NCBI GenBank assembly: GCA_035235625.1 | Contig: CP141143.1 | Coordinates: forward strand, 15,173,092 to 15,237,091 | DNA from: Saururus chinensis | Lineage: Eukaryota > Streptophyta > Magnoliopsida > Piperales > Saururaceae | Direction: 5' to 3' | DNA: 64,000 nt | Shown: one piece after another, positions 4,111 through 54,702 of the stretch | Position numbering within the stretch: position 1 is the stretch's first letter | Layout: every line of letters starts with the position of its first letter | Program-made: the position numbers and the translations under genes | Notes under the pieces: model-generated | The model's input: only the letters and a program-made list of their open reading frames with translations | What the model was told of the DNA's origin: nothing | Database searches by the model: none

Positions 4111-4224
4111 ATGTGCCAAAAATGGAATTTTGGGGTTTGCTTTATTTTGTTTTGTGTGAGAAGTATCAAAGACCAATCTAAATACATAAAATAAGCTAAA
4201 GAGAGTAATTAATATAAAATATTT

Positions 4225-4263
4225 TTTTTATATATTAGAGCTATTAATATAAGACGGAGGGAG
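4225..4263 (-). mobile_element. Single Stowaway-like terminus (partial MITE)
   Basis: The plus strand ends in ATATAAGACGGAGGGAG. Its reverse complement is the classic Stowaway terminus beginning CTCCCTCCGTC. I could not find a matching opposite end within 150 bp, so this looks like a truncated copy. Confidence 0.45.
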
Positions 4264-4571
4264 AGAAACCATGGTTCATCAGTAATCAATCAATCAAAAC
4301 GTATCCACTATAATGTCCGGCTATTACGGAAATGAATCATATTTTTCGCAAATATTTGTCACCTGCCCCTAAAGATGAATGTGAAAATTTTTGGAAACAC
4401 GAGTCTCTCTTCTTTTTGGTACAAGGAAGTATGAGTTCTTGATATATAACATGTAGAATAATCTCTATCTACCACTTGAATAAGAAGCTGTAAATTTAAA
4501 AGTATGTTCAAGTTCCTTCTGCATATTATGCTTAGAAAAAAAATAACAGGAAATTCTGATTTAATAGTGTA

Positions 4572-4714
4572 CTTCCTCTGTCTTAAATTAATAGTTACAT
4601 ATTTTTTTAAAATGAACTAAGTGTTTTAAAATAAAATAAAATAAAATTTAAAATAAATTTTAATTAATTTATTTAAAAAAACTAAATATAATTATTAATA
4701 TAAGATGGAATGAG
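4572..4714. mobile_element. Stowaway-like MITE (143 bp) with TA target duplication
   Basis: The left end reads CTTCCTCTGTCTTAAATTAA. The reverse complement of the right end reads CTCATTCCATCTTATATTAA. TA dinucleotides flank both ends (4570-4571 and 4715-4716). The interior is AT-rich and non-coding. Size, TA target and ends resembling CTCCCTCCGTCTTATATTAA are typical of Tc1/mariner-derived Stowaway MITEs. Confidence 0.75.
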
Positions 4715-4718
4715 TATT

Positions 4719-5654
4719 ACTAATGAGAGATCAAACCTCTGTTGATCTTCGTTGATTTGATGCTCTTATTTCTCGCAACCTTGAAGAAGGTTGTGTCACA
4801 TTCTTGCTCTTAAATCTTTCTCCATTAAACTTTCATATTTTTCTCAGAAAAGAAGCAGAAGAATTTGTTATTGTAGCTCATACCATCTACAAGGAAAAAA
4901 GGCACTTGTGCTAATAGAAAAATGAAGAAATTTTTTCCTTAAAAAACAAAAATAATGAACTGGAAAGTGTTTCGATCAGCGGAAGCCAACCACTTAAACA
5001 ATACCTTCCCTGGTGAATTTGAAGACAGAATATAAAACTAGTTGACATATTGGAGAAGCCAAGCAAGCTAAGTAAAGTTAGAATATGACATAAAAAATTA
5101 ATATGTTAATTTTTTTTGAATTGGCGAGTCACACAAAGAGTTTGGCTTTGTTATATCTCTAGAATGTATATAGTGTATCGCTAGAATTCAATAATGTTTG
5201 TAGGCATATAAGGACTAAGGAGCCCACCTTTGCAAGGCATTAGCATCACATCTTGCATCCAACCAGTTCTTCTATATGCTCGAATGCATAATGCAATTCA
5301 ATGTTGTTACCAATAGGTATCCATGAGGAATATTTTTCTCCTTAAAATTTCAAATCTCATATGTCAATGAGTAGTTTTGCTGTTGCTCAAAATATTAGGC
5401 ATGTCTAAAAGTATACTTGGCTGACAAAATCCCCTAATGGTGGAAATTGTATAATAGTGAACAACCAAAGAAGAATGAAGGAATGTGAGAGAAGACATGG
5501 CGTTGTATAACAAAGTATATCAATGGCGACAACTCCTTACTAATGGAGGACGTAGATCTTGATGATGAAAAGGGATCATTAATGCAAAAGACGTCACAGC
5601 CGGTTCCACTCAATTGGTCATGAGATCAAGAAAACTAGTTTTTGCTAAATAGAC
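4719..5654. other. Intergenic DNA, nothing recognisable
   Basis: AT-rich sequence without a coding frame, RNA gene or clear repeat. Confidence 0.5.
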
Positions 5655-6037
5655 AACAGGAACCCTTTCAATTGGCATTTTGAGAGTTGATATGCATCAG
5701 AACATGAACAGATGAACCTGTAAAGAAGACCATAAAATGCTCTCCTTTGATCTTCTGATGTTTTGTATGTTGAATAAATAATATATCCTGAGATTTTGTG
5801 ATGAGAAGCAAGGACAAAGTTGATAGGCTTGACATAAGGCATCAAACAACATGAACCCTTTGAATTGGCGCATTTCGAGAGTTTGATATGTATTTAAACA
5901 TGAAGGGATGAACCTGCAATGAAGCCCATAAAATGCTCTCCTTCGTTAATCTTTTAATGTTTTATATGTTGAATAAATAATATATCCTGAGATTTTGTGA
6001 TGAGAAGCAAGGGCGAAGCTGATAAGCTTGACATATT
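5655..6037. repeat. Tandem duplication, two copies of about 193 bp
   Basis: Both units begin around GAACCCTTT-AATTGGC (5660 and 5853). They share long near-identical stretches including TTGAATAAATAATATATCCT and the following GATTTTGTGATGAGAAGCAA. The period is 193 bp and divergence is modest. It is non-coding. Confidence 0.8.
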
Positions 6038-6064
6038 TCTAAAAAAATTAAATATTACCACGAG

Positions 6065-6205
6065 TAATGCTATTGTAACTTGAAGTTTCACACATCAAAA
6101 TTTTACTTCATCATTTTTATACCATTGATGTGTGAGGCTTATTTTTATGGGCCCCACTCATCTAGAGTTTTGACATGTGAAACTTCACGTCACTCAAGCA
6201 TATTT
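6065..6205. mobile_element. Short foldback (MITE-like) element
   Basis: The left arm contains CTTGAAGTTTCACACATCAAAA. The right arm contains TTTTGACATGTGAAACTTCACG, which pairs with it. The intervening sequence is also partly self-complementary. No target duplication was fixed with confidence. Confidence 0.45.
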
Positions 6206-6229
6206 CTATTACCACCAGTCTATGACATG

Positions 6230-7760
6230 TTGGCATTGTGATTCTTGTCTAGTTGAAATTGTTACTTTTACCCTAGTTATGGTCCATTTTTGTGACATAT
6301 CATCTAAGGGCTATAGGGTTAGTGTGATATTAATATAAAAACTTCAAAATACAAACTCCAACCAAAGACAAAAGCCCAAAAAGATAATTCAAGCTTCAAG
6401 AAGGCCATGTGAAAAACAAGAGACAAAGGCTCAAGCCCAAAGAGGACAAGGAACAAGCTTCAAGACAAAAAGCCTAAGAATTGGTCAAGGTCTCTTAATT
6501 CTAGTCTATTGGCCCCAAAAGACAAGTTATTCAGCTCTTAGGTTGGTTAGAGAAAAGACTCATCCAACTCATGTAAGGAAAATACAACTATACCCAAACA
6601 TAAGCCTAAATTAAGACCCAAACATAGACCCAATGGAATCCCTTAACTATAAATACACTCTCTTGGGTGAAGTTGAAATCACTTCTCATTCCCTTGTGTC
6701 TTGACTTGGGTTATTAAATCATGAGGAGAGACTCATAAAAGTGTCCCGAGTTTTCTTTCCCTTATAAGATCGAAGTTTAGTAGACTTTCAATCAAGATCT
6801 TGGGAAAGAACTAGAGACCTCTTAGATTCGATTTTATATCCCCCATAATAAAATTATTTTGAAATTTTTGTATGTTTTGATTAGTCTTCTTCCCCTGAAA
6901 ATGGTCCACGAGATTTCTTTAAGGAATAAAATAGTCCATGAGATTTCTTTAAGGAATAATAATAATGGGTTAAGACTATTTGACAATAGTTTCTTAGGTC
7001 AAATAGGTACATCTTTTAGAAACCCATGTTTTTCTGTCCAAATAGCCTCAAGAATTTTGAAGCACTGATTTCAATCTAAGGATGGACAGTGGAAGACCGA
7101 AAGCTTGAAACATGTGTTCAAGAAAAGGTGTAGGATATTCAATTCTCACAAAAGAGTATAAGTGATCTAAATCTTTTTTTAATTTTGAGAGAATGGAGTA
7201 AATCAGGGGTTGAAACACGTAGTAAGAGAGATATGAGTTTGGGTATAACCTGTGGAGAGTTCAAGAGTAACTCTAGGTGAGTGTGAATTCACTCAAAGTT
7301 GTGTAACAGTTAACGTTGAGCCAATGAAAACCATACAGTTAACGATGAACCGAATAAAACTGTATGTTGTACATGGTTGAGGGTGGGCTTGAAACCCTCA
7401 CATAGTAGAAAGTTGAGGTGCCTTGCATTTGGTGCTTCGAGAGTGTGGATGTAGGTGTTGTCTGGTTCTCGATGCTCAAGCAACGCTATAAATCTCTTAT
7501 GTGCATTATGATTGCTCTTGATTGTTCATCTATCATATATAATCACCATTAGGCTATGTAGGTTAAAGTCACTCCCTCACCACATAATGAGTTTGTTAAC
7601 TTTAGATATATTGAACTTGTGTGTGCTTTAAAATGAACTATCATTGTGGATTGACTTTCACTTGCTTAATCACAAAATAGAAATTATTTAAGTAAGATTC
7701 AAAGTTTTAAGCAAAGTCCTATTTACCCCCCTCTAGGACATAGCGCTCCTTAGTGGATTT
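6230..7760 (+). mobile_element. Decayed LTR-like sequence with a TATA box
   Basis: This block is non-coding. It has a good TATA box (CTATAAATAC, 6648-6657) and a run of C's followed by CTCTAGGAC near its right end (about 7725-7740), a feature often seen near the end of copia-type 5' LTR/leader sequences. A possible TG start is TGTTGGCATTG at about 6229. I found no convincing target duplication or primer-binding site, so the limits are approximate. Confidence 0.35.
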
Positions 7761-8961
7761 TCAGAAATCACATAGTGACACGACTCTTTCTAGAAAAAAA
7801 GTATTGTTTGTATGCATTAGATGCACCAATGTTTTGTTTGTATGAGCTTCATGCATTGTTAGCATTGCATGTGACTATTACTCAAGGGGCAAGCGGGTTT
7901 AGAATTTGCAACCCACCCCTATTTACATGTGCGCCATTTAGATCTAATAGTGCATGATGTGCCCCACTCACTAATTTTTTTCAAGGTAACTCTATTACCA
8001 TATGAAGTTTAGGAGCCTCTCTATTTGGAGAAGAGGTAGATGTATTTTGATCAATTTCCTTCTTCATGTGCTAGGATTAAAGGCTAAGTAATAGTAAAAT
8101 CTTAATGATAGAGTTGACACTTCAATCAAGATTTTGGATCCCAATTGAAGATGGATTGGCTTTTGATATGGATATGTCTAATGTATCTATATGCACCCCC
8201 AAAAACCCCAAGTACCTTGTTTCTGTTTTATCCCTGGTAAAATTCAATAAAATTTATCCTCATACCCCAAAAAATATAAATATTTTGTTCCCCTTCCTGC
8301 ATTCTTCTTCTTAGGCGCCAAGCTCTAGCAGTGCTTGACAACATGAACTCTCTCCTCTTCTCAACCCTTGCATGTGCCAGTTAGGGCATTTCTAGCCACG
8401 CCAGACAGATTTGGTTGTCGCCAAGCCTACCTACCATAGTTGGACCTGGTCTAGCATGGCTTCTAGGCTTTTTCGCTAGCTGGCAATGACCAAACTTGTT
8501 ATGGAGGGCATGGCTAGGCCGGGGCCAAACATGGTTTGGCATGGCCTCTAGGCCACTACCCTAGTTAGCATAGGCCACTAGCTAGAGACTGGCCACAACC
8601 AGTCTAGACTAGTCTAGTTAGGTGGTGTCATGTGAGTACTGTAAAGTTTTATCGTTCACTGCTTACTATTTGCTTTCATTTTTTTGTTGTAATAGTTTTG
8701 TTTAATTACAATTTTTTTTGGTTTATTTTGAATTTAATTAAAAAAATATTAGTATCTAGCTTAATCCACCAAGTTACCATACTAATTATTGTTATTTTCT
8801 ATGTAAGTTCTTTTATTAAGGAAGTGGGCCCTACCATAGGACCCATGACCGTCTCGGGTGATGTGCCAACTTCTTGGGTCATTGATTCTCACTTAACATT
8901 TTAGATGGGCTTGGGCCTTGTCACATTAATTCTAGCTCATTTTCTTAGTGGGTTCACTTAT
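7761..8961. other. Intergenic DNA with short repeats
   Basis: No coding pattern. Around 8175-8215 is a stretch resembling one arm of the foldback element at 62647-62766 (shared TCTATATGCACCCC). 8380-8620 has many short imperfect repeats of CTAG/GGCC type. 8957-8961 (CTTAT) is one copy of the target duplication of the split solo LTR described next. Confidence 0.45.
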
Positions 8962-9415
8962 TGTCACGCCCGAGGTTTTTTCACATATTTACTTTTAAAA
9001 TTTTACTAAAATTTCTTTTTCAAAACACGAATGTAAATTAAATTAATTCAAAAAATTCAAAACATGTGAAAATAATTTTCGTAAATTAATTCATAATACG
9101 ACAAAACTAAAATTCTCAGGCGTGACCCGAATCGAAAACATATAAGGAAAACTTGTCATGGCCATGGTCTTTAAAAACAAATACATCTCAGGCCTTTCTG
9201 AGTACAAGTTCTTCAACAGTTTGTGTTTTGATTCATATATAGTAGGTACACAAGTCCAGAAAATAATAAAGTTTTCTTACCTTAACCAATACAAGAGATC
9301 GTGACACTAAAATATACATAGCCTCACTATGATTTCGCTGCACTCCAGGTCGAGGAAGGATAGTTCACCACAGGGAGAAGTCCAGTCCAAAAAGTTATCG
9401 ATCAACCTGCAAAAG
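8962..9415 (-). mobile_element. Split solo LTR ('LTR3'), 3'-terminal segment, antisense
   Basis: In minus-strand reading this is the 3' end of a large LTR, finishing GGGCGTGACA at 8962. It aligns by eye with the 3' ends of the copies ending at 14110, 20024 and 56251. Shared landmarks include GTGCCACGATCT-like, TTGTACTCAG and the GCGCCTGAGGATATTTG-like stretch. It is cut at 9415 by the later insertion of the solo LTR at 9416-14110. Outside its end, 8957-8961 is CTTAT, the complement of ATAAG at 34568-34572. Confidence 0.85.
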
Positions 9416-12400
9416 TGTAATGCCCTTGATTTTCCCTACGATTTTTTATGTTTTTCTTGTGATTTTTCTTGTCATTTTCAGCAGGAAAATGTGACGTGTT
9501 GGCATATTTGGCCTTAGTATTTGTATCCGTAGTCAGGTGTGGGGTTCAGTCATAGGCCATGGGCCTGGACGCACGTTTATGACGTGAAAAATTGAGAGAG
9601 AATGAAAGTGTCGAGCCCGAGCCCAATCCAGACCATTCTGGAAGAGAAACGCCCCCCCCCCCTCACCTCTTCGATAGCTCTATGTCCTAGCCACTGGTGG
9701 CCACCAGTGGGCCATAGGGCCGGTGCAGCCAGCTCCGCCCTAACCATGCAATGGCAGGGGGGCCTCCGCCTCGGCCACCACGATAGCTCCGGCCTCCGTG
9801 GATCCCCCCCCCCCCCCCCCCCAAATCAGCCCTTTCCCTCCCTATTTAGAGTTTGAGCCGCCGGCGTGGGCTGGCAAGGGCCGGCTTGGCGATGGCCAGG
9901 GATGGCCATACCCAGCCCAACCTCTCTTGGTTTGGTCTCCTGACTCCCTCCCCTTTTGCCCTTTTTTTCACTGCCTTATTGTTTTGATTAAAAGTGGCCT
10001 CCAGCGACGAGCCACCGTCGAGGACCTCCGTCCAGCCCCGGCTTGGTCTGGCGAAGTTAGTGGAACATCCCTCCCTTCCCAGTTCTGCCTCCACCCTTCC
10101 TCTTTCCTCCGGCAAGATGCTTGCATCCTCCCCTATTTATGTCTGTGACGGAATTTGAGGTTGCGCCAGTGAAAGCCAGCATCCAGCTCGCATTCGTCGG
10201 CTAGCCTATGGCTGGCGACAATAGGGCTATCCTCCCAACCAGCTCCGACACCCCCCACGGCCGCTCGACCCTAGCTGGTTTCCTCCAGTCGGTCCCTCTC
10301 CTCTGTTTTTGGTTTGATAGGAATTGTGGCCGCGTCAGCGGAAGCAAGCCTCTAGTGAGCTTATGGTCGACCAACCTTGGCCTGGAGGCACTGGTGTAGC
10401 CGCCTCCACCGAGCTCCACCCTGCTTTGCCACCTTCCCTCCCCGGCCCTATTTTCCCCTCTAGTCAGCCCCTATTTTCGGTATGTCTATTTTGGACGTTG
10501 TATCGTTTCCAGTTGGATGCCAAACCTAGCCAAGTGGACCTTCATTGGCTCCGCCCCGACCCAGCAGCGATGGTGGAGCACTGTACCCAGTTCCATTCCA
10601 CCGTACCTGGCTTGGTCCAGCTGCTTTCACTGGAATGAGTAGCTTTCCCCTTGGCCGGACCCCATTTTCCAATGTGTGTAGCATACACCGGTCAAAGAAG
10701 GATCGTTTTGCTGCAACCGTGGGCCATGTTTGGCCAACCTTGTCATAGTGATGGCCCCATCTGGGCCGGTTCGACCTCATCTGACCCCAGCTCCTCTTTG
10801 TGGCTTATAGCCCCAAACTAGTTCCACCTCACTGGCATGTCTACTATTGACCCCTCTTGCCCATTTTACGTCGTCGATACTGGATGGCCTCTGGCAAGAT
10901 TCTATATGACCTATCTTGACCGAACATGGATGAGTTCACTTACATAGGCCTTGGCTAGTGACGGCCTCATAGCTTTTGCTTGACCTTGAACCTTTTCCCC
11001 GTCCTCTATTGTGCAAGATGCACAGCTACCCACACCATTGGTTTTGGTTGTGGGTGGTGATCGGCAATGTCGCCGCTTTGATTGGCCATCACTAGGGCCT
11101 TAGCCGTGTTGGCCCTTTATGAGCCTTGGACCGCCTCTGTCTAGCCTCTCCCCCTCCCATTTGGCCATGTGTGCATATAGCCGCGCGTGTGGTTTAGGGA
11201 TTAGGTGCCGCTTTGGCTCCGCCTGACCATTGGATGGCTCCCCATCGTCTGGATTTGACCACCAGAGTTCACCACCTCTCCTCTGTCTTTTAGTGTCGCT
11301 CCACGTCCTCCGCCCTTATGTGGGCCCTTGTGAACGCAAAATTGATGCCGTTACGTGCTGTCCATGGCCGATTTCGATGTCTTATGACCAGTTGAGTATT
11401 GTTCAACCGCCAATTGAATTTTAGTGTGTACACCTGGACCTTCGGTTGCACGTGCCACTCGTTGGCACGATCTTTCTCCCAGACACCCATGGTGTGCCGC
11501 CATGGATCCTGGATTTTCCGCATTGACATTTTTCACCCTTGTTTGGCCACAAGTAGTTCCGGCGCTTCCTAAAACCTCGGGACAACAGCTCTCTCAACTT
11601 AACAAGGGTTTTGACTGCCAACTCGGCCATCGACGCCGCCACTGTTGTATGCTCACCATCAAACGTCATGATTACGAGGTAGGGGAGCTTTGAACTCGTA
11701 ATTTCATGATAACATGCTTTGAATGATAGTAGCATGCTAGGATTGTAAGATTCCATGTTTTGGATATTAAATCATGATCTATTTGTATGATGTAAGATAA
11801 TGAATTATGCTACATTGAGATATATATGATATGTATGAGATGTATGTATGTTTTATGGATGTGGAATAAGTATGTGCTAGTGATGGCTAGCGAATATGTT
11901 AGTATGCTACGTATGTGTATTATGGACATGCTAGTGATTGCTAGCGATTGTGAGTTAGTTATGTATATGGGTTGTGTATGGGCAGAAGTTTGGTGACGAA
12001 CGATAAGAGATGATAGAGGGTTGGTACAAAGTTGGATGTGTAAGCATGTGACGAAAGACGGCGGACATAAGTTTGACAGGCGAGGATTTGAGCGGATTGG
12101 TTTGGTTTGGAGTGACGTCAGGGGTTCGGTAAGTAAGAGGACTTAGGCTTGGAGTTTTATGGAGGTTTATTAGACAGTAAGAGCGTGCATAATTGTACAA
12201 GCATAACGTATAAATTATGAAGTGAAAAGTAAGCATAATAAGTGAGGTATTAAGTAAGAGGGTGATAACGGGAATCTACTGTGTGGAACTCAGTTGGATG
12301 ACGTATGTGTAAGATGTCTTGGCCATAAGGTGGATGGCGGAGACTGTATGATTATGTAAGTATTTGATGTACGGTGAGTTGATCATGATATGGACAGGTT

Positions 12401-22760: not shown

Positions 22761-24847
22761 CTATTGGATCCTGACCCACAATCCCTTGCTTGGCAAACCT
22801 CGGTTCACAACGTGAAGCAAATAGTACCCGGGCGGAGCAATGTTGGCCGTGGGCGGGGCCAAGCACTCGATGGCATACCCCATTGGCCCGATTTTCTCCA
22901 CATTGTTGATGTGCAACAGCAGAATCCTTTGGTTCATGGAGTACCCGTGGGTGGTGAACGGCGGCAGCAACATGGTCACCTTGGCCATCTTTTCATTGAA
23001 CCACGGCTCGAGCAGGAAAATGGAAACCTTGAACGTCGCACCATATCGCAGCTCCCTCTTCCCTCTCTCACCAATGATGATCGGCCTGTGTATGGCCAGT
23101 GCCGGGTCCAGATACGGCGGTGAGAACTTCTCCACCCGCAGCTCCGTTGGGAACTTGACGCCAGTGAGGTTGTACCCAGCATTGGTGTTGCTGCCCGCCA
23201 CCAAGATACGGCCGTCGGGCAGGACTACACTGGAGGAGTGGTACATGCGCGGGATTGTGGTGGGGTTCTGAACGACAAACCGGTCGTTCTTGACCTTCTT
23301 TGGCCTGTACACCCATGGCTCGAGAGCCGGCTCGTCTGCGTAGCCCCACCCAGCGCAGCCCTTCCTGGCGCCGTTGATCATCAGCACGTTGGCGTCCGGG
23401 AGGAGGAGCATGTCGGCCATGGTCCGCGGACTCGGCATGTCCTCCATGTGCCAGACGGCGTCCTTCTTGGTGATTACGAGACGGCCGCAGGTCCGGAGGG
23501 CGTTGACGAAGGTGCCCTTGGCGGCGAGCCTGGCGGAGAAGGGCCCAGAGCCGCCGCAGACGAGGACCTCGACGTCGACCTTCTTGTTGTCCACGTGGAG
23601 GCGGATGGGAAGGAGGGCGGAGGAGCCAGAGGAGGGGTAGTTTCGAGAGCCGCCGGGGAGGACGGGGAACTCGTGGACGACCTGGTGGGTGGTGGGGCTG
23701 AGGAGGATGGAGCGGTTGTTGGCGAAGATGAAGAGGTTGCCGTCCGGGACAAGGTAGACAAAGGGGTAGAGGTTGTTCATTATGCTCCTGAGGTCGTCGC
23801 ATGTCTCCCTCAGGAACGGCAGCTTGTAGTTGATCATTGTCGGGTTCGACTGGCCTGGTGGTGGCACGAACTCATAGCTGAACTGCCGCCTGCCGCCGAT
23901 GACGATCATGTTGCCGTCCGGGAGGATGTGCTGAGTCGAGTACCTGTTTGTATTCAAGGAGACACAGTGATTTCCTCGTAAGTACTCTTACGTAACATTT
24001 ATGGTCATCTCGATCCACTAAAGTGAAAAGGAATGCGTCTATTTACCCGGTCTTGTCTAGATCGATTTTCATTTAGATACGGCTAGATGACAATAATGGG
24101 AGGGTAAATAGACGCCTTCAGTGAGAAAGACAGATGATTACCATCTTTGGGCAGAGAGTGCAGTTGAGTACTCGACCCAGTCGCATTTCGGGCAGGAAAC
24201 CAAATACCTCACGCCCCTGCCTCCATCGTTCCACCCGCCCGTTTGCACAAGTTGCCCGTTCCGGTCGAGTGCACCGGATGAGCACCATGTATTGGTTGGG
24301 ATCTGTAATCCAAAATGAGTTTCATTATTTGCATGGCCACCCATGATTATGTGTATAGTTTAGTAGTCATTGATCATCTAGAAATACACACGATATCTAT
24401 CTGATCAAAACCCATAAATGGCACCTTGAGTGGGCGAATACGAGCTGTCTCTATGTCGTACTCGACGGCATGAGCCCAGCAGTCGTCCTTGCCCTTGTTG
24501 GGGTCACGGCGGCATTTGCCCTTGGGCAGGGGGGCCTTGGAGGGACCAAAGTTGGTGGCGTCGAACATGATGACCTTGTTGGTGGGCATCAGTTGGACGT
24601 GCATGGCCGACACGCCCGAGTTGGAGCTGACCAGCTCCCACTCCCCTTTGTACTCCGTCCGGTAGTCCTTCTTCACCACCCCGGCCTGGTTTGGATCTGC
24701 GGTACCGAACGGACCGTCAATGCCCCCTATGACCCCCGGGCCACCGCTGCCGCCGAAGAACGGAATGGTAAAGTCCAATAGTTGGGCCATGGCAATCCCG
24801 AACATGAGGGGTATAAGGACCATCGTCTCACGTCGAACAATCGCCAT
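22761..24847 (-). CDS. GLOX-type aldehyde/glyoxal oxidase (galactose oxidase-like), three exons
   Basis: Coding join on the minus strand: 24847-24425, 24302-24142 and 23943-22761, with GT-AG introns and one continuous frame, giving 588 residues (the family is usually 540-620). The N-terminus is hydrophobic (residues about 9-22) and looks like a secretion signal. The order is glyoxal oxidase N domain (about 45-470), then a C-terminal DUF1929-type domain (about 475-588). Residues matching the copper/radical site of galactose and glyoxal oxidases are visible: Cys148 in NTWCSSGAL, Tyr196 after an Arg-Trp pair, Tyr429-His430 in RMYHSSSVV and His527 in THGYSMNQR. The enzyme should oxidise aldehydes to acids with release of hydrogen peroxide in the apoplast or wall. 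GC3 is very high, producing long antisense shadow frames. The gene lies inside the segment proposed to be inverted. Intron 2 carries a small foldback. Confidence 0.93.
24025..24120. mobile_element. Small foldback/MITE in intron 2 of the GLOX gene
   Basis: GCGTCTATTTACCC at 24035-24048 is the exact reverse complement of 24102-24115. An inner pair around TCTAG/CTAGA is also present. The element fills most of the 198-bp intron (23944-24141), in whose centre it lies. It leaves both splice sites free. Confidence 0.6.
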
Positions 24848-25399
24848 GGTTGCAAAGGGGGCACAGCCGCCTGGACCTCCCCCGCTGTCTCTTACTCCTG
24901 TTCTCCCTCTTCTCCTTAACTGAGCTTCTTCATCTTCTCTTCCTCCCTAGCTCCCTCTTGTTTATCTTTTCTCGTTGTCATGATCACTGCTCTACCTCCC
25001 GTTCGTGGTTGGGAAGTTTGATTGGGTTGTCAAATTTGTTCCAAAAAATACGTCTGATTTCTCCTCACGGTCGCGTCTAAGCAGAGGCCGTCCTGCATTG
25101 TAGGAGTTGTAAACGCTGGTGAAGCTTCACCAGCCTCACACGTACTATTATCTCGCGCGGTCTCACTTGAGATTGCAAACGCCCAAGCCCCGTGGAAAGT
25201 TGGCAGATATGTGTTGTTAATTAGTGACACCTTTTATAAATTTGTACGTGTTTAAAGTTGAATAAGATGAGGCTTATAGACCTTCAGGCCGGTTCCATTC
25301 ACCGGCGCTCTCACGACCTAGTAGCCTTGGGGCAATTAAAATTTTTAATTCTAATAAAAGTTGAAAAAATTTTAATTAAAAATATAACCTCCCTTGGAA
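24848..25399. other. Upstream region of the GLOX gene
   Basis: Pyrimidine-rich leader-like sequence (24860-24960) precedes the GLOX start on the minus strand. A minus-strand TATAAAAG (complement of 25231-25238) lies about 390 bp upstream of the ATG and is the best promoter candidate. No other gene is seen. Confidence 0.35.
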
Positions 25400-28020
25400 C
25401 TAGGCCGTCTGTATTATACAGGAACTAGAAGCCTGGTAGGCCCATGACCTAGGGAGCATCAAAGCAAGGCGAAGATGTTGCGAAGTCATCAGTATTGATA
25501 TGGTGATAGAAGACTCATGCTTTGGACGTCCAACAATTTTACAGCATTGAATTGATTCTACTTTGAAAACCCTCAATAGAAAAGCACCCAGTTTCAATCC
25601 AATGCCTAAAAGGATGGAAAGAAGCCCGAGATTCAATTTGATTATATTCTGTTTTTGATTTGTCATTGTAAGAGCTTTCTTTTTTGCTTCCCTGATTAAA
25701 AATGTTGTAAGGTTGCTCACATATTCCTTTTTTTTTTTTTGGATAAAAAACATTTCCAGTTTTCCATGTTTTAGTATGAATAGCAAAAGCTAATAGCTCA
25801 TCTCCTATTGTTGGATTCTAATAGTATTGGGTTGATATTTCAGTAGTTGAATACGTTGTTATGTAGCTCACATGTCCTTTTTCTTGTATTTTGTTTGTGG
25901 AATTTTTTTTAAGTTTTTCATGTTTTAGAATGAACTTGTTCCCTCATTTTATTAATTTTCTTCGTTGAACCTCCTACTCTACAATTGTTTTACGGTTTTG
26001 TTCTAGTATGTAAACTGTTATTCGGATTGGGGTTTGGTGTTTTGGACTTTAGTATTATGGTGGTAAAATCGCGAAATTGACTGATTCTTTTTTGGATTAT
26101 ACGATTCAATATTTTGTTTTCTTCTTATTGGTAAAATTTGGGGGTTCCCCTTTCCATTAAGCGTTTGATTAAATATGCTTCATTCTTTTTCTTCTCGTTG
26201 CTTTTTATAAAACCGGTTGTGAATATATTTTTCCTATGAATCTTTGTTTGTTAGTGATTCGATGGAAGTTTTTTCCTGTTTATATATTATCATGACTCCC
26301 TTTAGTAGTCTTTTGGGCACATGTAGTTTAAGTAGTAAATTGGAAGAGGAGATCAAGTCTATAGAGGTTATCTCTTTAAGATATATTTGTCTCCCCTTGG
26401 GCTTTGGGACAGATGAATATCTATTTCTCGGGATGAAACGATTTGATGTTGATTATTGGAAGCACTCTAATAACAACCAACAACGAAAGAACTTTGTTTT
26501 TACTCTATGAGCTCATACTAAACTTATGCAAAAAATTCCACTTCGAGTGTACATATGTAAAAGGTCTACTAGATTGTAAAAGGACAAGATTTGTAAGGAC
26601 TCTTATCTTAAACAAGTCTATATTTAATTTTATTTATTAATTAACAGTTATCATGTGGTTTATGTATTTTCTGATTAAATTTGGTATTTTTCAAAAATAA
26701 ATGAGATTTTTAAATATTTTAATTAAAATTAACTTCACATTTATGAGTTTTAAGTGAAATTGGGTCAAATCTGAATTTTTGATAATTTTTTTAATTTTTT
26801 AAAAAATTAGGGTTTGAGAGAAAATTGGGATGATGATGTTATTTGAGGGAAAAAATAGAAAAAGAAAACTCGAGGATGGTAGAAATTTGAAGCATAGACC
26901 GGCCGCCATCTGTTCACATGGTAGACCAAAAATTTGGTGGTCTTCTGCTTTTAGGTACTAATGGTGGGAAAAGGGTCCTCCTTGAGGACCTCCATGAAGG
27001 GGAGCTATTGATTCTAGCACATGTGCATATGTAAGTGAAAGTGATGTGCTAAAGAAGAAAAATCCACGATCTTATCAAATTAGATATGGAGTCGTGCCGA
27101 GTTGTTAGGGATAAAATCTAGTCTTATAAAACTTGTTCAGATAAGATTTTATCATATCTTTGTTGATTTTATCATTATCTCCAAATGTGAAATACCGATC
27201 AGAAATATCTGAATGTGAAATACCGGTCAGAAATAACAGAGAAAATGATAAACCACAATATATCCTTACAAGTCAACAAAGCTAACTAAAAAAAAATTAT
27301 TTTTCAAATCCTTGTAAATCATGCTGAGGGAATAAGTCACTTCTTTCTAATTTTTTGAAGTAAGATTTGATAAGATTGAGATGAATCCTTTCATTTGACT
27401 AGTTAAATTACCAATGAATTTTGCGAGGTGTAAAGGAAATTTGTAAATTTGAACATGTTGGTGGGTTGAGCATCCAGCATATAATATGATAGAAGGATTG
27501 GAAGAGGCTAGGGCATGTGTGAATTTTGCAATAACAAAAAAAAGGAGAGAGAGAGAGAGAAAATTTTCTATATATATATATAACTTACTCTCATATGAGA
27601 AGATTACATTAAAAAAAAAGAATAATAATGATGAGAAGGATATCTATTAGTGTAGAATTGCCTCTCTAATTAACTCTTCCTTAACATCTTCAAGAAAAAC
27701 AATATGTCCACTGTCTAAATCTTCGGTGCAGAAGAGATATCTTGCTTGGAAGGGGTTCCTCCCTTAGATGAGCTTTAGACTTTAGTGACATCTTTGCGTG
27801 CTCTCATTATTATCTCCACATCTCTATCAATTATAACTTCAGAATTCCCATCAAAATTTAAACGGGTTCTGTACGATGGAATTTGATTTTGCTGGCAACC
27901 CAAGAGAAGAATTTAATAGTAAACCAGGAATTGCTCTCACAACCTTTTCCAATGGGTGACAGTTCCATTTATAAACTCATTCCACTGCCACCCCTTGGAG
28001 GGGTTATTTGTTGACAAAAA
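25400..28020. other. AT-rich intergenic DNA
   Basis: No coding frame with a family signature was found; the 128-codon minus-strand frame at 25400-25786 and the plus frame at 26244-26510 have no recognisable domain. Short GA and TA microsatellites lie at about 27544-27583. Confidence 0.45.
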
Positions 28021-28216
28021 ATTAATAGGTGAGGACCTAATGAGACCTCCTTACTCTCAAAATTAAATGGCTAAGAGAAACTTTATAAGCCTCACGTAGC
28101 CACATCAAAATAAAAAAAAAATCCAAATTGCAAAGGGTTGTGTGAGATCCCAAAAATCTCACACCAAAATAGCTATAAAACAAAAGGCTAAGTGACACTC
28201 GTAGATCCCACGATTA

Positions 28217-28254
<38 letters not shown>

Positions 28255-28455
28255 TTATCGTGGGATCCACGAGTGCCACTTAGCCTTTTGGTTTTATGGC
28301 TATTTTAGTTTGAAATTTTTGGGATCTCACACAACCCTTTGCAATTTGGATTTTTTTTAAAAATTTTTTGATGTGGCTACGTGAGGTTTACAAAGCCTCT
28401 CTTAGCCATTTAATTTTGAGTGTAATGAGGTCTCATTAGATCCTTACCTATTAAT
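28021..28455. mobile_element. 435-bp foldback element with arms of about 200 bp
   Basis: The left arm (28021-28218) begins ATTAATAGGT. The right arm (about 28250-28455) ends ACCTATTAAT and is its reverse complement with few mismatches. A (TA)n run of about 30 bp forms the loop. Landmarks such as GGGTTGTGTGAGATCCCAAA appear in both arms in opposite orientation. It is non-coding and would form a long hairpin in single strand or RNA. Confidence 0.85.
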
Positions 28456-28543
28456 TGCAAAGGGTTGTGTGAGATCCCAAAAATCTCACACCAAAATAGC
28501 TATAAAACAAAAGGCTAAGTGACACTCGTAGATCCCACGATTA

Positions 28544-28594
<51 letters not shown>
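28453..28594. repeat. Third, partial copy of the foldback's left arm plus expanded (TA)n
   Basis: 28453 onward repeats 28126 onward essentially base for base up to the TA tract (period 327 bp). It is followed by a longer TA tract (about 45 bp, 28549-28594). It abuts the right end of the foldback directly. Confidence 0.85.
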
Positions 28595-28596
<2 letters not shown>

Positions 28597-29749
28597 CCAT
28601 AAAAAACCAAAATGATTGAAAACACAAAAAGTTAAGTTTCAAATAACTCAAAGTTTGAAGAAAAAAATTTATGTGGAAAATCCCATGGGCCCCATGTGGA
28701 GAACGAGAAGACCAAGTTAAAAGTATGATACCCAAACTTCTCTCACACTCCCAACTAACTCACTCCCCATTAATCAATTCAGTTCTTACAAACCATCCCA
28801 CTAATCCATTCTCCATCTCCCACTAACCCACTTTCTTACATCCCACTAACCCACTCTCCACTTCCCATGAACTACCCTTCCAACTCACCCCGACTACTTG
28901 CTTAACCCTACAACCCCCATCATATAAATACCCATTTATTTTCATAAGGAGGGGGCTTTTGACTTTCAAGTCTTCGGAACATCCAAAAAGAAATCTAAAA
29001 GCCCATCACACACCAAAAGAAATCCAAATCCTAAAAAGATTTGACCTTTTGAAAGTTAAAGAAGTTTAAAGAATCAAAAGACAAATAAAACCATGAAGGA
29101 AGAAGAACTTGTGCAAGGGGAGCTCTCATCTTCAAGAAGAATTTTTCTTGTTTTTTTTTCTTTTCTTTTTTAAAATTTGAAAGTTGTAGCCACTTCTCCT
29201 AACAATTTTCTTTTCTTATTTTAATAAATTTTAAGTTATTTCTTTTATTTTTGCCATCTAATTGAAGAGTTTCAAAAATTAAATAATCATCACTACTAAC
29301 TATAAAGTGTAAAGAGTGGTCTTGATTATTCAAAAGAAGGTCGTCCGACATAAAAAAAAGTTCTTTTCTACCTTTTGTGCCAAAGGATCATCTGATCCAT
29401 TCTTAAAGATATACAACCATCCTCGAAATTCTGATCACAAGTAATTCTTTTAAATTATTCCGCATTTTATAGACTTTCACTTTAATAAGTGTAACCACAA
29501 AGGAGATAGTTATTAGTTTTTATAGGAAATACTTATTAGTGAACCTACTTTAAAAAACAAAAAATTTATAATGTTCTCTTATGTGAACCGTCAAATAGGG
29601 AGGTCATGGCAATGGCACGGGCAGTTCGTAATGTTGGGTTATGCCACATGTTCTTCTCACACAGAAAATCTACAAAAATGGAAGAAGTTAAAGAAATAAA
29701 ATATTATTGTGGAGTAAGATAATTTTTTGCAAATAAAAGGTAAAAAATA
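28595..29749. other. Intergenic DNA, possible old LTR
   Basis: No gene. A TATA-like ATATAAATACC lies near 28921-28931, followed by leader-like sequence, which could belong to a decayed LTR. No ends or target duplication were found. Confidence 0.3.
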
Positions 29750-30297
29750 ATACTTGAGACAACTCGTCTCAAGCCCTCCTCCCTAAGATCAATGATGCTA
29801 CATGACGTCCGGTATACTCATCTATTTGCATCTCAGCTCTTTGTGTTACTTCTAAGTACCATTTTAATACTAATTGTGCAAGAATAGTTGGAAGTGCCTT
29901 ACTTCCAATGTGTGCACTCTTTTACATAAAGAAAATATGTTAGAAAAAAAAGTAATTAATATTTTTTAATATATTACCAAAACTCTTGATCCTCGAGTTG
30001 CCCTTAGTCGTGGTGCGGATAACTTTATGGTTTGAAAAATAATTAAAAATGTTATCATTAAAATAGTAAGAACTCAAGTATTATTATGCTAGTTTTAAAT
30101 TCAACAGAATGAAGTGTACATGAGAGTAATGATCAAATTTTATTAAAGTTAAAGTATGCTGACCAAAAACTGTCAAAACTACCCCTAAGTGTTAAGAAGA
30201 ATGAGTCAATTACAAATAAAAATAAAAATAAGGAATACCTGCAATCTATATCCCTTTCCTTATATTATTAAAGATCCGCTATATGTATTAATGCCCT

Positions 30298-30504
30298 ATG
30301 TCTACGCAACTTGAAGTTGGTAGTTTAGGTGCCAAACATAGTGCAATGCCACTACTAAGAGTAACACCTCAGAAGATACAAGAAGTACACCTATCCTGCG
30401 CTACTCAACATGCTTATATATGTTTTCTCTATGATAAAGATAAGAGTGATGACCATCTTCATAAAAAATCAGTCATTAACTTCATTAAATATAACTCTTA
30501 CTAA
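30298..30504 (+). other. 68-codon open frame in direct repeat copy 1
   Basis: It begins MSTQLEVGSLGAKHSAM and is 68 residues long. The second copy at 31389-31595 has only three substitutions and no stop. No family is recognised. Conservation may simply reflect recent duplication rather than coding. Confidence 0.3.
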
Positions 30505-31388
30505 GCATAGCTAAAGTGTTTGTATCTTAACTCTTCGTTAAAGAACATTGTATAAGTTAATTGTTAAAACTAAGGCAAAACTAACCTTAATTACCTGCTA
30601 ATAATAAATATTTTGTTATTTAGTTTAGGTACATAAGATAAACTTAGTAAATGTAAAGACGTAGAGAGACTCCTAAAAAAAGTCTATGTCCCATGCGTCT
30701 TAATGTAAGAGAGAAATAGCAATATCGTTAGGGGCAATTAAATTTGTAAAGCAACCTTATTTCTAAACTTCATCGAGTTTTCTTCTTTTTTGTGGATTCT
30801 CATAAATTTCCTTTATCAAAATTTGTGGACGTTCATCATCATTGAAAAAATATTATAAAGTTAGCTTAAAGTGGAAATTGATAAGTTACATGACGTCCGG
30901 TATACTTATCTATTCGCATCTCAGCACTTTGTTATACTTCTAAGTACTATTTTAATACTAATTTTGCAAAAATAGTTGGAAGTGCCTTACTTCCAATATG
31001 TGCACTCTTTTACATAAAAAAAATATGTTAGAAAAAAAAAGTAATTAATATTTTTTAATATATTACCAAAACTCTTAATCCTCAAGTTGCCCTTAGTCGT
31101 GGTGCGGATAACTTTATGGTTTGAAAAATAATTAAAAATGTTATCATTAAAATAGTAAGAACTTAAGTATTATTATGCTAGTTTTAAATTCAATAGAATG
31201 AAGTGTACATGAGAGTAATGATCAAATTTTATTAAAATTAAAGTATGCTAACTAAAAGCTGTCAAAACTACCCCTAAATGTTAAGAAGAATGAGTTAATT
31301 ACAAAAATAAAATAAAATATAAGGAATACCTTTAATCTATATCCCTTTCCTTATATTATTAAAGATCCGCTATATGTATTAATGCCCT

Positions 31389-31595
31389 ATGTTTACGCAA
31401 CTTGAAGTTGGTAGTTTAGGTGCCAAACATAGTGCAATGCTACTACTAAGAGTAACACCTCAAAAGATACAAGAAGTACACCTATCCTGCGCTACTCAAC
31501 ATGCTTATATATGTTTTCTCTATGATAAAGATAAGAGTGATGACCATCTTTATAAAAAATCAGTCATTAACTTTATTAAATATAACTCTTACTAA
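31389..31595 (+). other. 68-codon open frame in direct repeat copy 2
   Basis: Partner of the frame at 30298. Differences are S2F, P19L and H56Y by reading of the two translations. See that entry. Confidence 0.3.
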
Positions 31596-33280
31596 GCATA
31601 GCTAAAGTGTTTGTATCTTAACTCTTCGTTAAAGAACATTGTATAAGTTAATTGTTAAAACTAAGGCAAAACTAACCTTAATTACCTGCTAATAATAAAT
31701 ATTTTGTTATTTAGTTTAGGTACATAAGATAAACTTAGTAAATGTAAAGACGTAGAGAGACTCCTAAATGAAGTCTATGTCCCATGCGTCTTAATGTAAG
31801 AGAGAAATAGCAATATCGTTAGGGGCAATTAAATTTGTAAAGCAACCTTATTTCTAAACTTTATCGAGTTTTTATTTTTTGTAGATGTTAAAAAAAGACG
31901 TTCTAAAGTGATAATTTACATAATGTCTTTTTTCTTAACTCTTCGTTAAAAAACATTTTATAAGTTAATTCTTAAAACTAAGGCAAAACTAACCTTAATT
32001 ACCTCATAATAAAAAATATTTTGTTATTTAGTTTAGGTATATAAGATAAACCTACAAAATGTAAATACGTAGAAAGACTCCTAACTAAAGCCTATGTCCT
32101 ATGCATCTTAATGTAAGAGAGGAATAACAATATTGTTAAGGTTAATTAGATCTGTAAAGCAACTCCATTTACAAACTTTATTTAGTTTTATTTTTTTTTG
32201 TAGATAATTATAAATTTTCTTTATCAAAATTTGTGGACGTTCATCATCACTGAAAAAATATTATAAAGTTAGATTAAAGTCGAAAATGATAAGTTACTAT
32301 AGTGGCGGATGTAAGATTTTTTGTTAAGGGGGTTAAAAAAATAATGTAGTTTCGAATAGTTTTTTAACTAATATAAACTAAAAAAAATTATAATTAAGAT
32401 CTAATTTAACAAAAAGCGATCTAAAATGTTAAAAAAAAGACATTCTCAAATGTTAATTTACATAATGTGTTTATATCTTAACTCTTCGTTAAAGAACATT
32501 GTATAAGTTCATTTTTGAAACTAAGGCAAAACTAACCTTAATTACCTCCTAATAATAAATATTATGTTATCTAAATTAGGTATATAAGATAAACTTAATA
32601 AATTAAAAGGCGTAGAGAGACTCTTAACTAAAGTATATAAGATATCTTACTTTACAACAATATTTTATTTATTTAACATTTTCTTATTTTTATAGAAGAT
32701 GTTAATTTTAATATACATATTCTACCAAACTTTGATAAACTTCTAATAAAATTTGATTAGTACTTTTATGAACACTTCATTATGTAAAATTTAAAACTCT
32801 TAACAAAATGATACTTTCATTCTTGCTCTTTTAATAATAACATTTAATTTTTTTTAGATTACTACTAAGTTGTCTCCACAAAGAAAAGGGACAATGCGAG
32901 GACGAAGAGTTTTAGTAATTAATTAAAAAATATTCACGACTTATCTGATTTATTTATTTTTGTTTTAACATAATTTTATAATGTAAAGTAGCAACAAAAT
33001 GGAAGTAAGGCATTTCAAACTATTTATGCACGTTAGTACTTAGATGGTACATAAAAGTAAAAAAAAGTGTTATATAAGATGTTAATAAATAAGTACGGAG
33101 GAATGTCATGTAGTTGTTGATCTTAAATAGGAAGGAGACTTAAGACAAACTGTCATAAGTACATAGATGGGATTTAAAGTATAAGAAAGTGTTGTCTAAG
33201 TCGCTAATAGATAAGTACACTATAATGTCGTGTAGTCATTAATCTTATAGAGGTGGGGACTTAAGACGAGTTTTTATTAT

Positions 33281-34572
33281 AATTACAACTTTTTTATAAA
33301 AAAAATCTTACTATACGAAAATATTTAATTTTTTTAACATTTTGTTATTTTTGTTGAATACCTTAATTTTAATAAATGTCTTTACAAAATTCTAATAAAA
33401 TTCGATTTGTACTTTGATGAATACTTTATTTTGTAAAATTTAAAACTCTTAACAAAATGACGTCTACATTCTTTCTCTTTTAATAATAACATTTCTTAAA
33501 AAATATCATACTATATGACAATATTTAATTTCTTTACATTTTTGTAGATTTTTTATATAAGAGGAACACGAAGTAAAACTAAACATTACGAATTAGTTAT
33601 GCCATTGTAATGCTCTCCTTAGATATTTGATGGTTTACATAAGACAACTTTCTTATATTTTTGTTTTTTTAAGCATGTTAACTATTAAGTATTTTTTATA
33701 AAAGACTATGAATGAGAATTCTGTCACCCTTTGTTTTACCTAAACAACCCTACATATGTAAAGTAGATATCTACTTATTGTGTTAATATGGGTGGGGTGG
33801 TAAAAATAAGGGGCGGGAGACTTCTTATCTAAAGACTAATAAATATTAAAGTAAAGGTATATTAAATTCGAAACAATTTATAAGAATTAGTTGCAATCAA
33901 AGTTTTGAGGATCACCGTATATCCTTAATACCATCTTTGCTTTAAACATGATAGATACAACACAAGACATCATCAAAACGTATATTCAAAAAGATTTAGT
34001 CTCACACATCTACATACTTCAAGAACATGAATCCACCCACAAACATGGCCGGTCTTAATGCAAGTAAAACCTCATCAAATAAAAACCCCTTACCTCAAAT
34101 AAGATTGTAGACCCGTCAATCTCTTCCTAAGCTCAATGAATATTTACCCAACAAATTAGGTCACATTAGCCCTAAACAAAATTCCACTTTTTCACCAAAT
34201 AGAGATTCAAAATCACTACTAGAAAATAGATTTATCATCCTCTTGTGTCGAAAATGAAAATCATAAAAGTAGAAGCAAGAATCTGAATTTAGGTTTCAAA
34301 ATATGGGTAAAAGAATGGAATTGAGAAGAAGGAAAACATAGAATCTCATTCAAGAGGAGATGAGCATGGGATTGAAGGTAAAAATCAAAAGAAAACATAG
34401 AGAGATTTGAGTGATTTACCTTAGATTAAGCTTTCTATTTTTCAAAGGGGGTAGAGCTCTCCAAAGCCTTTAAAAAATCTTAGCCCACCCCAAATGGGAG
34501 GAATGACCAATGTTAGTATTTACACCTAGATTAAGTAAGTGGGTTTTAGAATAGGCTCAACAAAGGAATAAG
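33281..34572. other. AT-rich intergenic DNA
   Basis: No gene or RNA seen. 34568-34572 (ATAAG) is the target duplication at the 5' end of the split LTR; its partner is the complement of 8957-8961. Confidence 0.45.
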
Positions 34573-36446
34573 TGTAACTTCCCCGATTTTTTTGTAATTT
34601 TTTTTGCATATTTTTGCAATTTTCTGCAATGAATTAAAATTATTTAAAAAGGATTGGATCGCGCCGTGAACAGTGAAGGAGAGCTCCCTTCACTCTCTTT
34701 GGCCAGAAGCAGCACTGACACCGGCCACTGGCTTCCGCTCGGCCGGCCTTGGGCCCGCAACGCCGTTGCAGCCTCCCTGGCCTAGCCCCGTCGACCACCA
34801 CCACCTCTTCATCTCTCTCTCCAATTTCAGCCCGTAACCCCATTTTTTTTTAATTTCCACCCAATCTATAGCCATCTCCGCCTGCATGGCCTCCAGCTTG
34901 CTGCCACAGCTTCACCCCAACCATGACTACCTCTGGACACCTCCGTCCCAGCCTCCCCGCTGCCTACCGCCGCTCTTTTCCTTCCTCCCCATTTTGGTTC
35001 GTGAACTGCTATTTTTACCCAATCTGCCACCGTCGTCGTTGCATGGGTTCCAAATTGCCGCCACAGCTCCTCCCCAGCCAATGTGACCTCTAGCCACCGC
35101 CGTCCCATCCTCCTGCCCTAGTGCACCACTGTGAGGTAACACTCCGCCGCCCATTTTTTGTTGTTGTTTTCTTTTGTTTCTTTGGATTGCGGCCGCTGAT
35201 TGTGCCACTGGTGGCCAGCCACTGCGACCGGCCATTGGCCATCCCCCAGCCTGGCGACGACAAGACTGCCGCCCTGGCCGCCTCTCACTTAGCCCCCTCA
35301 GCCCTATTTCGAATGGGATAAAAATCCCCCCTTTTTCCTGTTCCAGTGTATTGTGAACCACTGTGCTGCTAATCTTCTGCCATTGGCCTTCTCCTGGACC
35401 GGCGACAGCAAGGCCGTCGCCTTGGACTGAACCGCTGCCTCCCCCTGCCCATCACCCCTCCTTCTGCTATTTTTTGATTCTGGACAGACTTTTGCTTTGG
35501 TTTTGTTTTTCTTCTTCTCCGGTAGCATCCATTCTCCATTGACTGACAATGTATGACATCGGGTCGATGTCTATTTGAATTGTTGTGGTCCAGTGATTGC
35601 TGAATTGCTACTGTCTTCCAGGTTTGTCCTTGGCCCCGTTCAACCATTTGTGGCCAATGATAGCGTGTCCACCGCTCTAGCCCGGTACTTTGTTGCCCCC
35701 GACTAAACTGAATCCCTTCGTTCTTTCTACCGTCAATTTTGCTGCCACTGTCGTCGACCATCAAACAGCTGCGATGACAGCTTGACCCAATAATGATAAG
35801 GGGACGCTGCTCTGGTCTCCTCTACACATCTTCTGCACACACCAGATGCCCCTAAACTTTGGGGTACATCTCTAATTGCCGCTGATGGTCCCCGCTCCAA
35901 CCCAACCCAACGTGTCTAGCTCGATATTGCGTGGACATGGCCACATGTCCGACATACAGGAGCTCTGCGTCAGCATAGTGATAGCAAGGGCTAGTACTTC
36001 AGCCCCGATTCTAGCTTTGCACCCCCACTTCCTATTATGCACGACCTAGAATTTGCAAGGAAAGGGTCCCTAAATTCATATCCTTCCAAGGGGAAGTAAC
36101 ATTGTTAGCTATTAGACTCTATCCATCGAAGGCTCGACCGATGTCGTGCCCATAACCTCCACCGTAAGTCGTGCTTGATGCATGATCATCCATACGACGA
36201 TGTGATTGTGGGTAAGCGTTTAGAAATAACACCACCTTTGTTGGCCACTTTCTACAGCCCTTAGTGCCCTCAACTTTTGTTTGGGCGACCGCCACTGGCG
36301 AACCCCACCTCTTCCGAGTTTGACCACTGATAGCCTATCCTCCCCTAGGGTTCCCTTTTTACCGCTCACGCTTGTGTTGTGTGTGCAGTCTATGTTAAAG
36401 ACACTGCCTTGGCGGGGTATGATGAGTGAATGATTCCACCACTAGG
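34573..36446 (+). mobile_element. Split solo LTR ('LTR3'), 5' segment, sense orientation
   Basis: It begins TGTAACTTCC and resembles the C/T-rich, gene-poor first 2 kb of LTR1, LTR2 and LTR5. Landmarks include the GTTGGCCACT-CAGCCCTTAGTG region and GAGTTTGACCACTG near 36316. It stops at 36446 against the 802-bp block. The five bases before it (34568-34572, ATAAG) equal the complement of those outside the antisense LTR end at 8962. Its length (1874 bp) plus that of the antisense segments (454 + 982 + 1393 bp) gives about 4.7 kb, the size of the other solo LTRs. It is CpG-poor, like LTR3. Confidence 0.82.
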
Positions 36447-37248
36447 ATGTTAACCTTTTCACATCAAAATTCTACTTTACCATTTTAAAACCATTAATAA
36501 TTAGTAAAAATTAACTTCAATCAAACATTTTTTTTTAAAAAGAGGGGATTTGAACCAAGAGGAGAAATTATCTACTTAATTTTAAGGCAAACTTGGGTAC
36601 AAGATTGCCACAACATTTGCTTTGTGGGAAACGTGACTAACATGAAAAAATTCGATGAGTCTTGTGATTTGGCGGACCAAATCGCAGATACGCCAAGGGA
36701 TGGAGTTGATATCAATTATTTGCCAATTCACACTTCATATTATATACATAAGTGGATAACAATTTTTGCTTTACAAATGTGCGCCTGTTCTGTTGGAGTC
36801 AGAAGCCTGCGACCTAATTAACTTAGTTTTCGGTAGAATATATATGACTTTTTGTTCCTAGCTTCATGCCTAGTCACTAGTGGTTCACAAGTATGAGGTT
36901 TTCCTTTCCCTTATACGATTTTTCTCTTTAAATATTCAAATAAAAACTTAGCCCTTTAGTACCGTACATATATTGATAAGCCCGTGATTTGTTTTGGGAA
37001 GCATTTATAGGCTCAATGGGGTCACTAAGCCTAGTAAAAGAAACATATGGGTGTCTTTGAAAACCATTGAATCCCCTATATATAAGGGTACTGTGTTGTC
37101 TAAGAGTATGGCTCCTCGGTTAGAGGAAGATCGACTCCGGATGGAGTCAGTGCCATATGCACAGACTATTGGCAATTTGATGTATGCCATGACCTGTACT
37201 CGACCTAATTTGAGTTTTGTGGTAAGCTTGTTAAGTCGTTACCAAGCA
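36447..37248 (+). repeat. 802-bp inverted repeat, copy B
   Basis: Near-identical inverted partner of 21423-22224. It starts ATGTTAACC at 36447 and the match ends at ACCAAGCA (37241-37248). Beyond that, copia reverse transcriptase coding continues uninterrupted, so copy B keeps the native right-hand context. The left 540 bp is non-coding and not recognised. Confidence 0.92.
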
Positions 37249-37812
37249 AACCCTGGTCTTCAACACTGGCAAGCAGTGAAGAGGGTATTTCAGTACCTTT
37301 TAGGGTCTAAGAGTTTAAAACTCACCTATCAGGCAGAAAGTTTGTCATTAGCTGGATATAGTGATTCAGACTATGCGGGGGATCCAGATGACAGGAAATC
37401 CACTGCTGGATATGTCTTCATGTTTGGAGGCGGTGTTATATCGTGGGCTAGTAAGAAACAAAAGAGTGTTTCTAAGTCTACGATGGAAGCTGAGTTTTAT
37501 GCATGCAGTATTGCAGCTTCCCAGGCAGTTTGGATTAAGGAGTTTCTAGCAAAGTTGGGGCTAGAAAACTGAACTGATGCTCCTGTCCAGATGTATTGTG
37601 ATAATCTGGCTACAGTGTCGACACTTAAGAATGGGGAGATCAGTGTCAGGGGTAAGCACATTGAGGTGCATTACTATTACATCTTCGACATGCTACAGAG
37701 AGGAATAGTGACTGTGAGTCATCTTCCTACTTCTGAGATGTTGGCAGATCCATTTACTAAGGCCTTAACAACGGATCTATTTTCAAAGCACGCTCATAGC
37801 ATTGGTCTTTGA
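36994..37812 (+). pseudogene. Ty1/copia polyprotein remnant: end of reverse transcriptase plus RNase H
   Basis: From about 37080 the frame matches copia pol: MESVPYAQTIGNLMYA and CTRPNLSFVVSLLSRYQ (RT C-terminal), then HWQAVKRVFQYL, then RNase H with SDSDYAGDPDDRKSTAGYVF and SKSTMEAEFYA. A TGA at 37570-37572 breaks the frame. Downstream the same frame continues with QMYCDNLATV, KHIEVHYYYIFDML and EMLADPFTKAL to a normal stop at 37812. The sequence before 37080 is unrelated to pol, so the element is truncated at its 5' side. It is non-functional. Confidence 0.9.
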
Positions 37813-54462: not shown

Positions 54463-54702
54463 GTTGTATAGGGCACCGGACGTCTGATGCTCTGCTGAGA
54501 GCGACGTTGTTTTGATTTGGTCTGCATGCTGTATAAGCCCAGATGTTTGATGCTCTGTTGAGAGCGATGTACGTTTCTGACTTTGTCTGTGTGCTGTATG
54601 AAGCCCAGACGTCTGATGCTCTGCTGAGAGCGACGTATGTTTCTGATTTGGTCTGTGTGCTGTGTAAGCCCAGACATTTGATGCTCTGTTGAGAGCGTTG
54701 TA
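54463..54702 (+). repeat. Palindromic-module tandem array in LTR5
   Basis: Four units of GAC-GTCTGATGCTCTGCTGAGAGCG type with a period of about 60 bp, homologous to 18535-18712 in LTR2. Confidence 0.8.

Follow-up and report, generated by a model that had tools for sequence, protein, structure and literature searches.

A solo LTR very probably split by a 14.2-kb inversion with an 802-bp inverted repeat at its ends in Saururus chinensis

Genes and repeats of the window

The window analyzed here is a 64-kb stretch (64,000 nucleotides) of contig CP141143.1 of Saururus chinensis, and all positions given below are counted from its first base. Its gene content is that of plant-like nuclear DNA. The genes are listed below; the first two lie within the segment that we discuss as inverted, and the last three were found by domain search.

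22442-22512, minus strand: tRNA-Gly(GCC)
22761-24946, minus strand: glyoxal-oxidase-like gene with PF07250 and PF09118
39426-39941: late-embryogenesis-abundant protein
43167-43646: part of a xyloglucan endotransglycosylase
43911-44372: TMEM234-type frame

The glyoxal-oxidase-like gene has stop-to-stop open stretches at 22761-23987 and 24374-24946, with another open stretch in between. Two repeat-rich regions were also observed. At 28020-28577, short inverted repeats whose arms measure 59-91 nt, with complementarity of 91-95%, form a cluster that includes a 125-bp perfect direct repeat (28126-28250/28453-28577). The AT-rich region 29403-33928 has diverged inverted arms (e.g., 29403-29487 and 33844-33928) that enclose a 1-kb tandem duplication (29799-30797/30887-31886, 96%); this region may represent a transposon that has long inverted ends.

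One family of long terminal repeats (LTRs) is represented in the window by three copies in sense orientation. Two of them are nested in an older LTR, E1, which is described in the next section.

9416-14110, plus strand: LTR1, solo LTR nested in E1, with target duplication AAAAG/AAAAG
15098-20024, plus strand: LTR2, solo LTR nested in E1, with target duplication GATTA/GATTA
47768-56251, plus strand: LTR4, with imperfect flanking 5-mers ATATG/ATACG

The ends of this LTR family are near-inverted copies of each other, starting with a sequence like TGTAACGCCC and finishing with one like GGGCGTTACA. Both termini and a target duplication, with no internal region between them, identify LTR1, LTR2, and E1 as solo LTRs. 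LTR4 contains a nested stretch at about 48810-52208, and some 140-170 bp of similar sequence lie beside it at both 47592-47757 and 56252-56391.

A solo LTR in two parts of opposite orientation

E1 is an old solo LTR broken up by two younger solo LTRs nested in it. Its antisense portion extends from 8962 to 21422, where it ends at one copy (copy A) of an 802-bp inverted repeat. The pieces of E1 were searched for with a hidden Markov model (HMM) built from LTR1 and LTR2, with the three sense LTRs masked. The antisense pieces are listed here together with the other features that bear on the proposed inversion.

8957-8961, no strand: CTTAT, left target-site duplication of E1
8962-9415, minus strand: E1d, 3' end of E1 (HMM positions 4616-5100, E 1.7e-21, reaching the LTR end)
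14116-15097, minus strand: E1c (HMM positions 3640-4620 at 15075-14111, E 2.4e-128)
20030-21422, minus strand: E1b, ending at the left breakpoint (HMM positions 2089-3471 at 21422-20026, E 2.2e-71)
21423-22224, minus strand: copy A of the 802-bp inverted repeat, adjoining E1b at the left breakpoint
22225-36446, no strand: putative inverted segment of 14,222 bp, as delimited by both breakpoints
34568-34572, no strand: ATAAG, the other target-site duplication of E1, presumably moved by the inversion
34573-36446, plus strand: E1a, putative 5' part of E1 (1,874 bp), ending at the right breakpoint, at copy B
36447-37248, plus strand: copy B of the 802-bp inverted repeat, adjoining E1a and still joined to the right flank

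The three antisense pieces follow one another in order and span model positions 2089 to 5100, with LTR1 and LTR2 filling both gaps. The HMM match of E1b begins on base 21422, which is the last base before copy A, and a second HMM also recognized this piece (model positions 457-920, E 8.8e-31). The part of the model without an antisense match, positions 1-2088, is the expected content of 34573-36446. At its other end, the last 166 bp of E1 (8962-9127) are bounded by an inner motif that resembles the terminal motif; a similar inner motif, with 5-6 differences, occurs in LTR1, LTR2, and LTR4.

E1a begins with an LTR-like end adjoining ATAAG, and its length of 1,874 bp fits the missing part. Over its first 63 bases, E1a aligns with the start of LTR2, beginning at base 1 (45/60). 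The best local scores of E1a against LTR1, LTR2, and LTR4 were 171, 218, and 175, respectively, whereas the highest scores reached by any of 12 other window segments were 121, 131, and 137, and the reverse complement of E1a gave 99, 103, and 138. Of the 737 bases aligned between E1a and LTR2, 446 are identical (about 60%). For each of four targets, E1a outscored the full set of 40 shuffles in loose-gap alignments; since the margin for LTR4 was only 1274 versus 1267, we relied on alignments with stiffer gaps. Two HMMs, which modeled the 5' part of the LTR and the stretch around the break, matched E1a on the plus strand, one at 36150-36316 (E 1.4e-5) and the other at 36156-36315 (E 1.3e-4) and 35203-35459 (E 5.8e-4); on reversed sequence, they gave two matches (E 7.1 and 8.7) and none. 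The third model, an HMM confined to the initial part of the LTR, gave an E-value of 0.021 for E1a, and the two-sequence HMM of LTR1 and LTR2 gave 0.12-0.13, with a noisy reversed control (7 matches, the best at 1.2e-11). Within the first 1.5 kb of E1a, the alignment register varies with the reference LTR, probably because of internal repeats in that part, so that single coverage there is only presumed at the level of individual bases. By these alignments, E1a is well placed at its ends but not in its middle. The homology of 34573-36446, at about 60% identity, is the weakest link in the reading of E1 as a split LTR.

At the outer ends, CTTAT (8957-8961) is the exact complement of ATAAG (34568-34572), which bears out an earlier sequence-only reading that had seen one target duplication in both places. 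The probability of a random 5-bp match is about 0.0012 to 0.0015.

At the inner ends, the head of E1b falls at position 1836 of LTR1, 4882 of LTR4, and 2023 of LTR2. The tail of E1a falls at LTR1 1864 and LTR4 4897 when 250 and 350 bp are fitted and at LTR1 1833 with 150 bp; tail fits of 80 bp and all those to LTR2 were scattered and uninformative (LTR2 z 0.2 to 3.0), and fits of the E1a head gave z from -0.4 to 3.3. E1a and E1b abut in the multiple alignment. Together, the separate fits and the multiple alignment place the overlap of the inner edges between about -3 and +29 bp, in place of the up to about 130 bp estimated previously, so that the edges meet within about 30 bp. The control junctions behaved as expected: E1c and E1d meet across the nested LTR1 at LTR2 4508/4509, and E1b and E1c meet at LTR2 3381/3382 when 80 bp are fitted, longer E1c heads falling at 3468-3514, in a repeated stretch.

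The two parts of E1 are therefore collinear, opposite in orientation, and abutting at the breakpoints, with the first 1.5 kb weakly aligned. The four pieces sum to 4,703 bp, in agreement with the LTR of about 4.7 kb that the sequence-only reading had obtained on restoring the order. That reading had named extensive double coverage of the same LTR region by both parts as the observation that would speak against it; the multiple alignment, the edge fits, and the HMMs revealed none. Given the collinear pieces, the abutting edges, and the HMM matches, E1 was very probably split by an inversion of 22225-36446, whose 14,222 bp correspond to the 14-15 kb first suggested. Because the uninverted order gives one antisense E1 between CTTAT and CTTAT, the inversion would have come after the insertion of E1, and the present order would be the derived one.

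We also considered, and rejected, the possibility that a repeat shared by the sequences outside E1 imitates an inversion edge. When 5000-8961 was compared with the complement of 30000-34567, the result was 19 short matches (the best of 57 bp, 75%, E 8e-6), none of them at the edges of E1.

The 802-bp repeat and the proposed origin of the inversion

The inverted repeat comprises exactly 21423-22224 versus 37248-36447. Its two copies are 98.75% identical over 802 bp and differ by 10 substitutions (8 transitions and 2 transversions) with no indels. The edges of the repeat coincide with the inner edges of both E1 parts, and an inverted duplication is present at both ends of the inverted segment, as is characteristic of inversions by staggered breaks. 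At the cut, the two LTR edges have a single base in common, with no overlap of at least 2 bp, and edge comparisons found no microhomology at the two new junctions. We also considered the 802-bp block as a transposon insertion into the LTR and rejected it, since no target-site duplication surrounds the block there beyond the one shared base.

Which of the copies is probably the original is suggested by an open frame that crosses the right edge of copy B at 37248.

36988-37572, plus strand: open frame of 194 codons

This frame runs more than 100 codons past 37248 and is continuous with the right flank. Its counterpart in copy A is interrupted by an in-frame stop and passes on into LTR sequence. 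This difference suggests that copy B is at home and that copy A is the duplicate. The frame carries motifs that we take to be those of a copia-type reverse transcriptase/RNase H. No Pfam family matched it, even at E 10, and searches of the PDB returned nothing meaningful; none of 11 and none of 75 pattern matches was confirmed in searches that covered viral and genome collections, and a literature search with short motifs of the frame found no paper. Its structure model has a mean pLDDT of 32.7. Farther downstream, from 37869 onward, a purine-rich stretch is followed by TGTTGGACC, as at the start of a 3' LTR of the copia-like remnant; no end of such an LTR was found.

On this sequence evidence, we favor, with modest confidence, a single inversion in which a staggered break or repair synthesis made the 802-bp inverted duplication in one step. 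In the ancestral state, E1 would have been a minus-strand LTR flanked on either side by CTTAT and whole save for any nested insertions. The segment carrying tRNA-Gly and the glyoxal-oxidase-like gene would have come next on the right, its base 22225 joined to an 802-bp stretch that was present once and led into the copia-like remnant. Two breaks would then have occurred, one clean inside E1 and the other staggered across 802 bp (or with an end extended by repair synthesis). End joining would have put the 14.2-kb piece back in reverse, and once the stagger was filled in, each end would have carried an 802-bp copy, the two being inverted relative to each other. Models for staggered-break inversions are described in passages of PMC7584159, and a passage of PMC3355041 explains by staggered breaks the inverted duplications, about 1 kb and 4.3 kb long, that flank inversions there. 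A single inversion that duplicates one break site also needs fewer events than insertion followed by recombination. Several points count against this explanation: the single-copy ancestral state is proposed from one genome and not from an uninverted relative, recombination between repeats also leaves identical repeats at the ends of an inversion, repair alone can produce such inverted duplications according to PMC7584159, the homology of E1a is weak in its first 1.5 kb, and the copia label is based on motifs that the database searches did not confirm.

Recombination between pre-existing inverted repeats was the mechanism proposed in the sequence-only reading; the split solo LTR, the inversion, and the shared duplication are retained from that proposal, and the mechanism itself is not established. 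It would require that the 802-bp block was first inserted, inverted, into E1, for example as templated filler, and that the two copies then recombined and flipped the segment between them. We regard this sequence of events as unlikely, though worth serious consideration. At 98.75% identity, 802 bp is long enough to recombine, and the edges of the flip would then be the edges of the repeat. Breaks in plant DNA are known to receive copied filler (PMC2686159), and the templated filler at double-strand breaks described in passages of that source would resemble the block in that nearby sequence is copied into a break without homology. Nevertheless, two events are needed, and a block that is not an element would have entered E1 without target duplication or loss. 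Furthermore, the maize fillers quoted in PMC2686159 measure 1 to 131 bp, far below 802 bp, and are described there without an accompanying inversion.

Another explanation is that the assembly flipped the segment between the inverted repeats and that the LTR parts are in reality neighbors in the plant, on either side of the 802-bp block. An inverted repeat of 802 bp is a classic spot for short-read misorientation, but a flip of this kind would still leave the presence of the block inside E1 unexplained, and the 10 differences between the copies would let long reads distinguish them; we consider it improbable. Least credible of all is the absence of any inversion, with 34573-36446 as an unrelated LTR fragment: the low homology of E1a (446/737 versus LTR2, about 60%) and its two-sequence HMM E-values of 0.12-0.13 agree with it, but it requires by chance a duplication match (about 0.001), a fit to the missing LTR part and its orientation, inner edges that abut, and a repeat whose edges fall on the two LTR edges.

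Relation to known inversions, age, and significance

The single inversion with a staggered break that we favor has counterparts in Drosophila. For inversions 2h and 2q of D. mojavensis (passages of PMC3355041; models in PMC7584159), a formerly single-copy stretch is present as an inverted repeat at both ends, as proposed here. The duplications in the Drosophila cases given in these sources measure about 1 to 7 kb, compared with 802 bp here. Inversions 2h and 2q are also far larger and were shown against uninverted relatives, whereas the order of events here is deduced from a split LTR within a single plant sequence. Inversion 2s of the same species, ascribed in PMC3355041 to recombination between repeats or transposons, has near-identical inverted repeats at its ends, as does the segment described here. 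For this type of inversion, exchanged target duplications serve as proof in the passages concerned, and an exchanged duplication is found here too. In contrast to 2s, however, the 802-bp copies are not complete elements, and the duplication that was exchanged is that of the split LTR rather than of the repeats. A limited literature search on breakpoints with inverted duplications or split LTRs found no plant inversion of the staggered type, although one may be in print.

The Jukes-Cantor distance between copies A and B is 0.0126 (10 differences in 802 bp). Plant substitution rates are 1.3e-8 to 6.5e-9 per site and year, and at these rates the copies would have diverged roughly 0.5 to 1 million years ago; gene conversion between them would make this estimate too young.

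Polarizing the breakpoints of a small inversion is usually difficult in plants. At slightly better than even confidence, we propose that this locus holds a one-step plant inversion that duplicated 802 bp and whose event order and both break sites can be read to about a base from one genome; they would be readable because one break fell in a solo LTR. The split LTR would thus reveal the derived order, the positions of both breaks, and a loss of at most a few tens of bases at one of them, and the two 802-bp copies serve as a clock. These features make relatives of the plant easy to test by PCR or long reads. The apparent micro-inversion clearly exemplifies a rearrangement of a known type.
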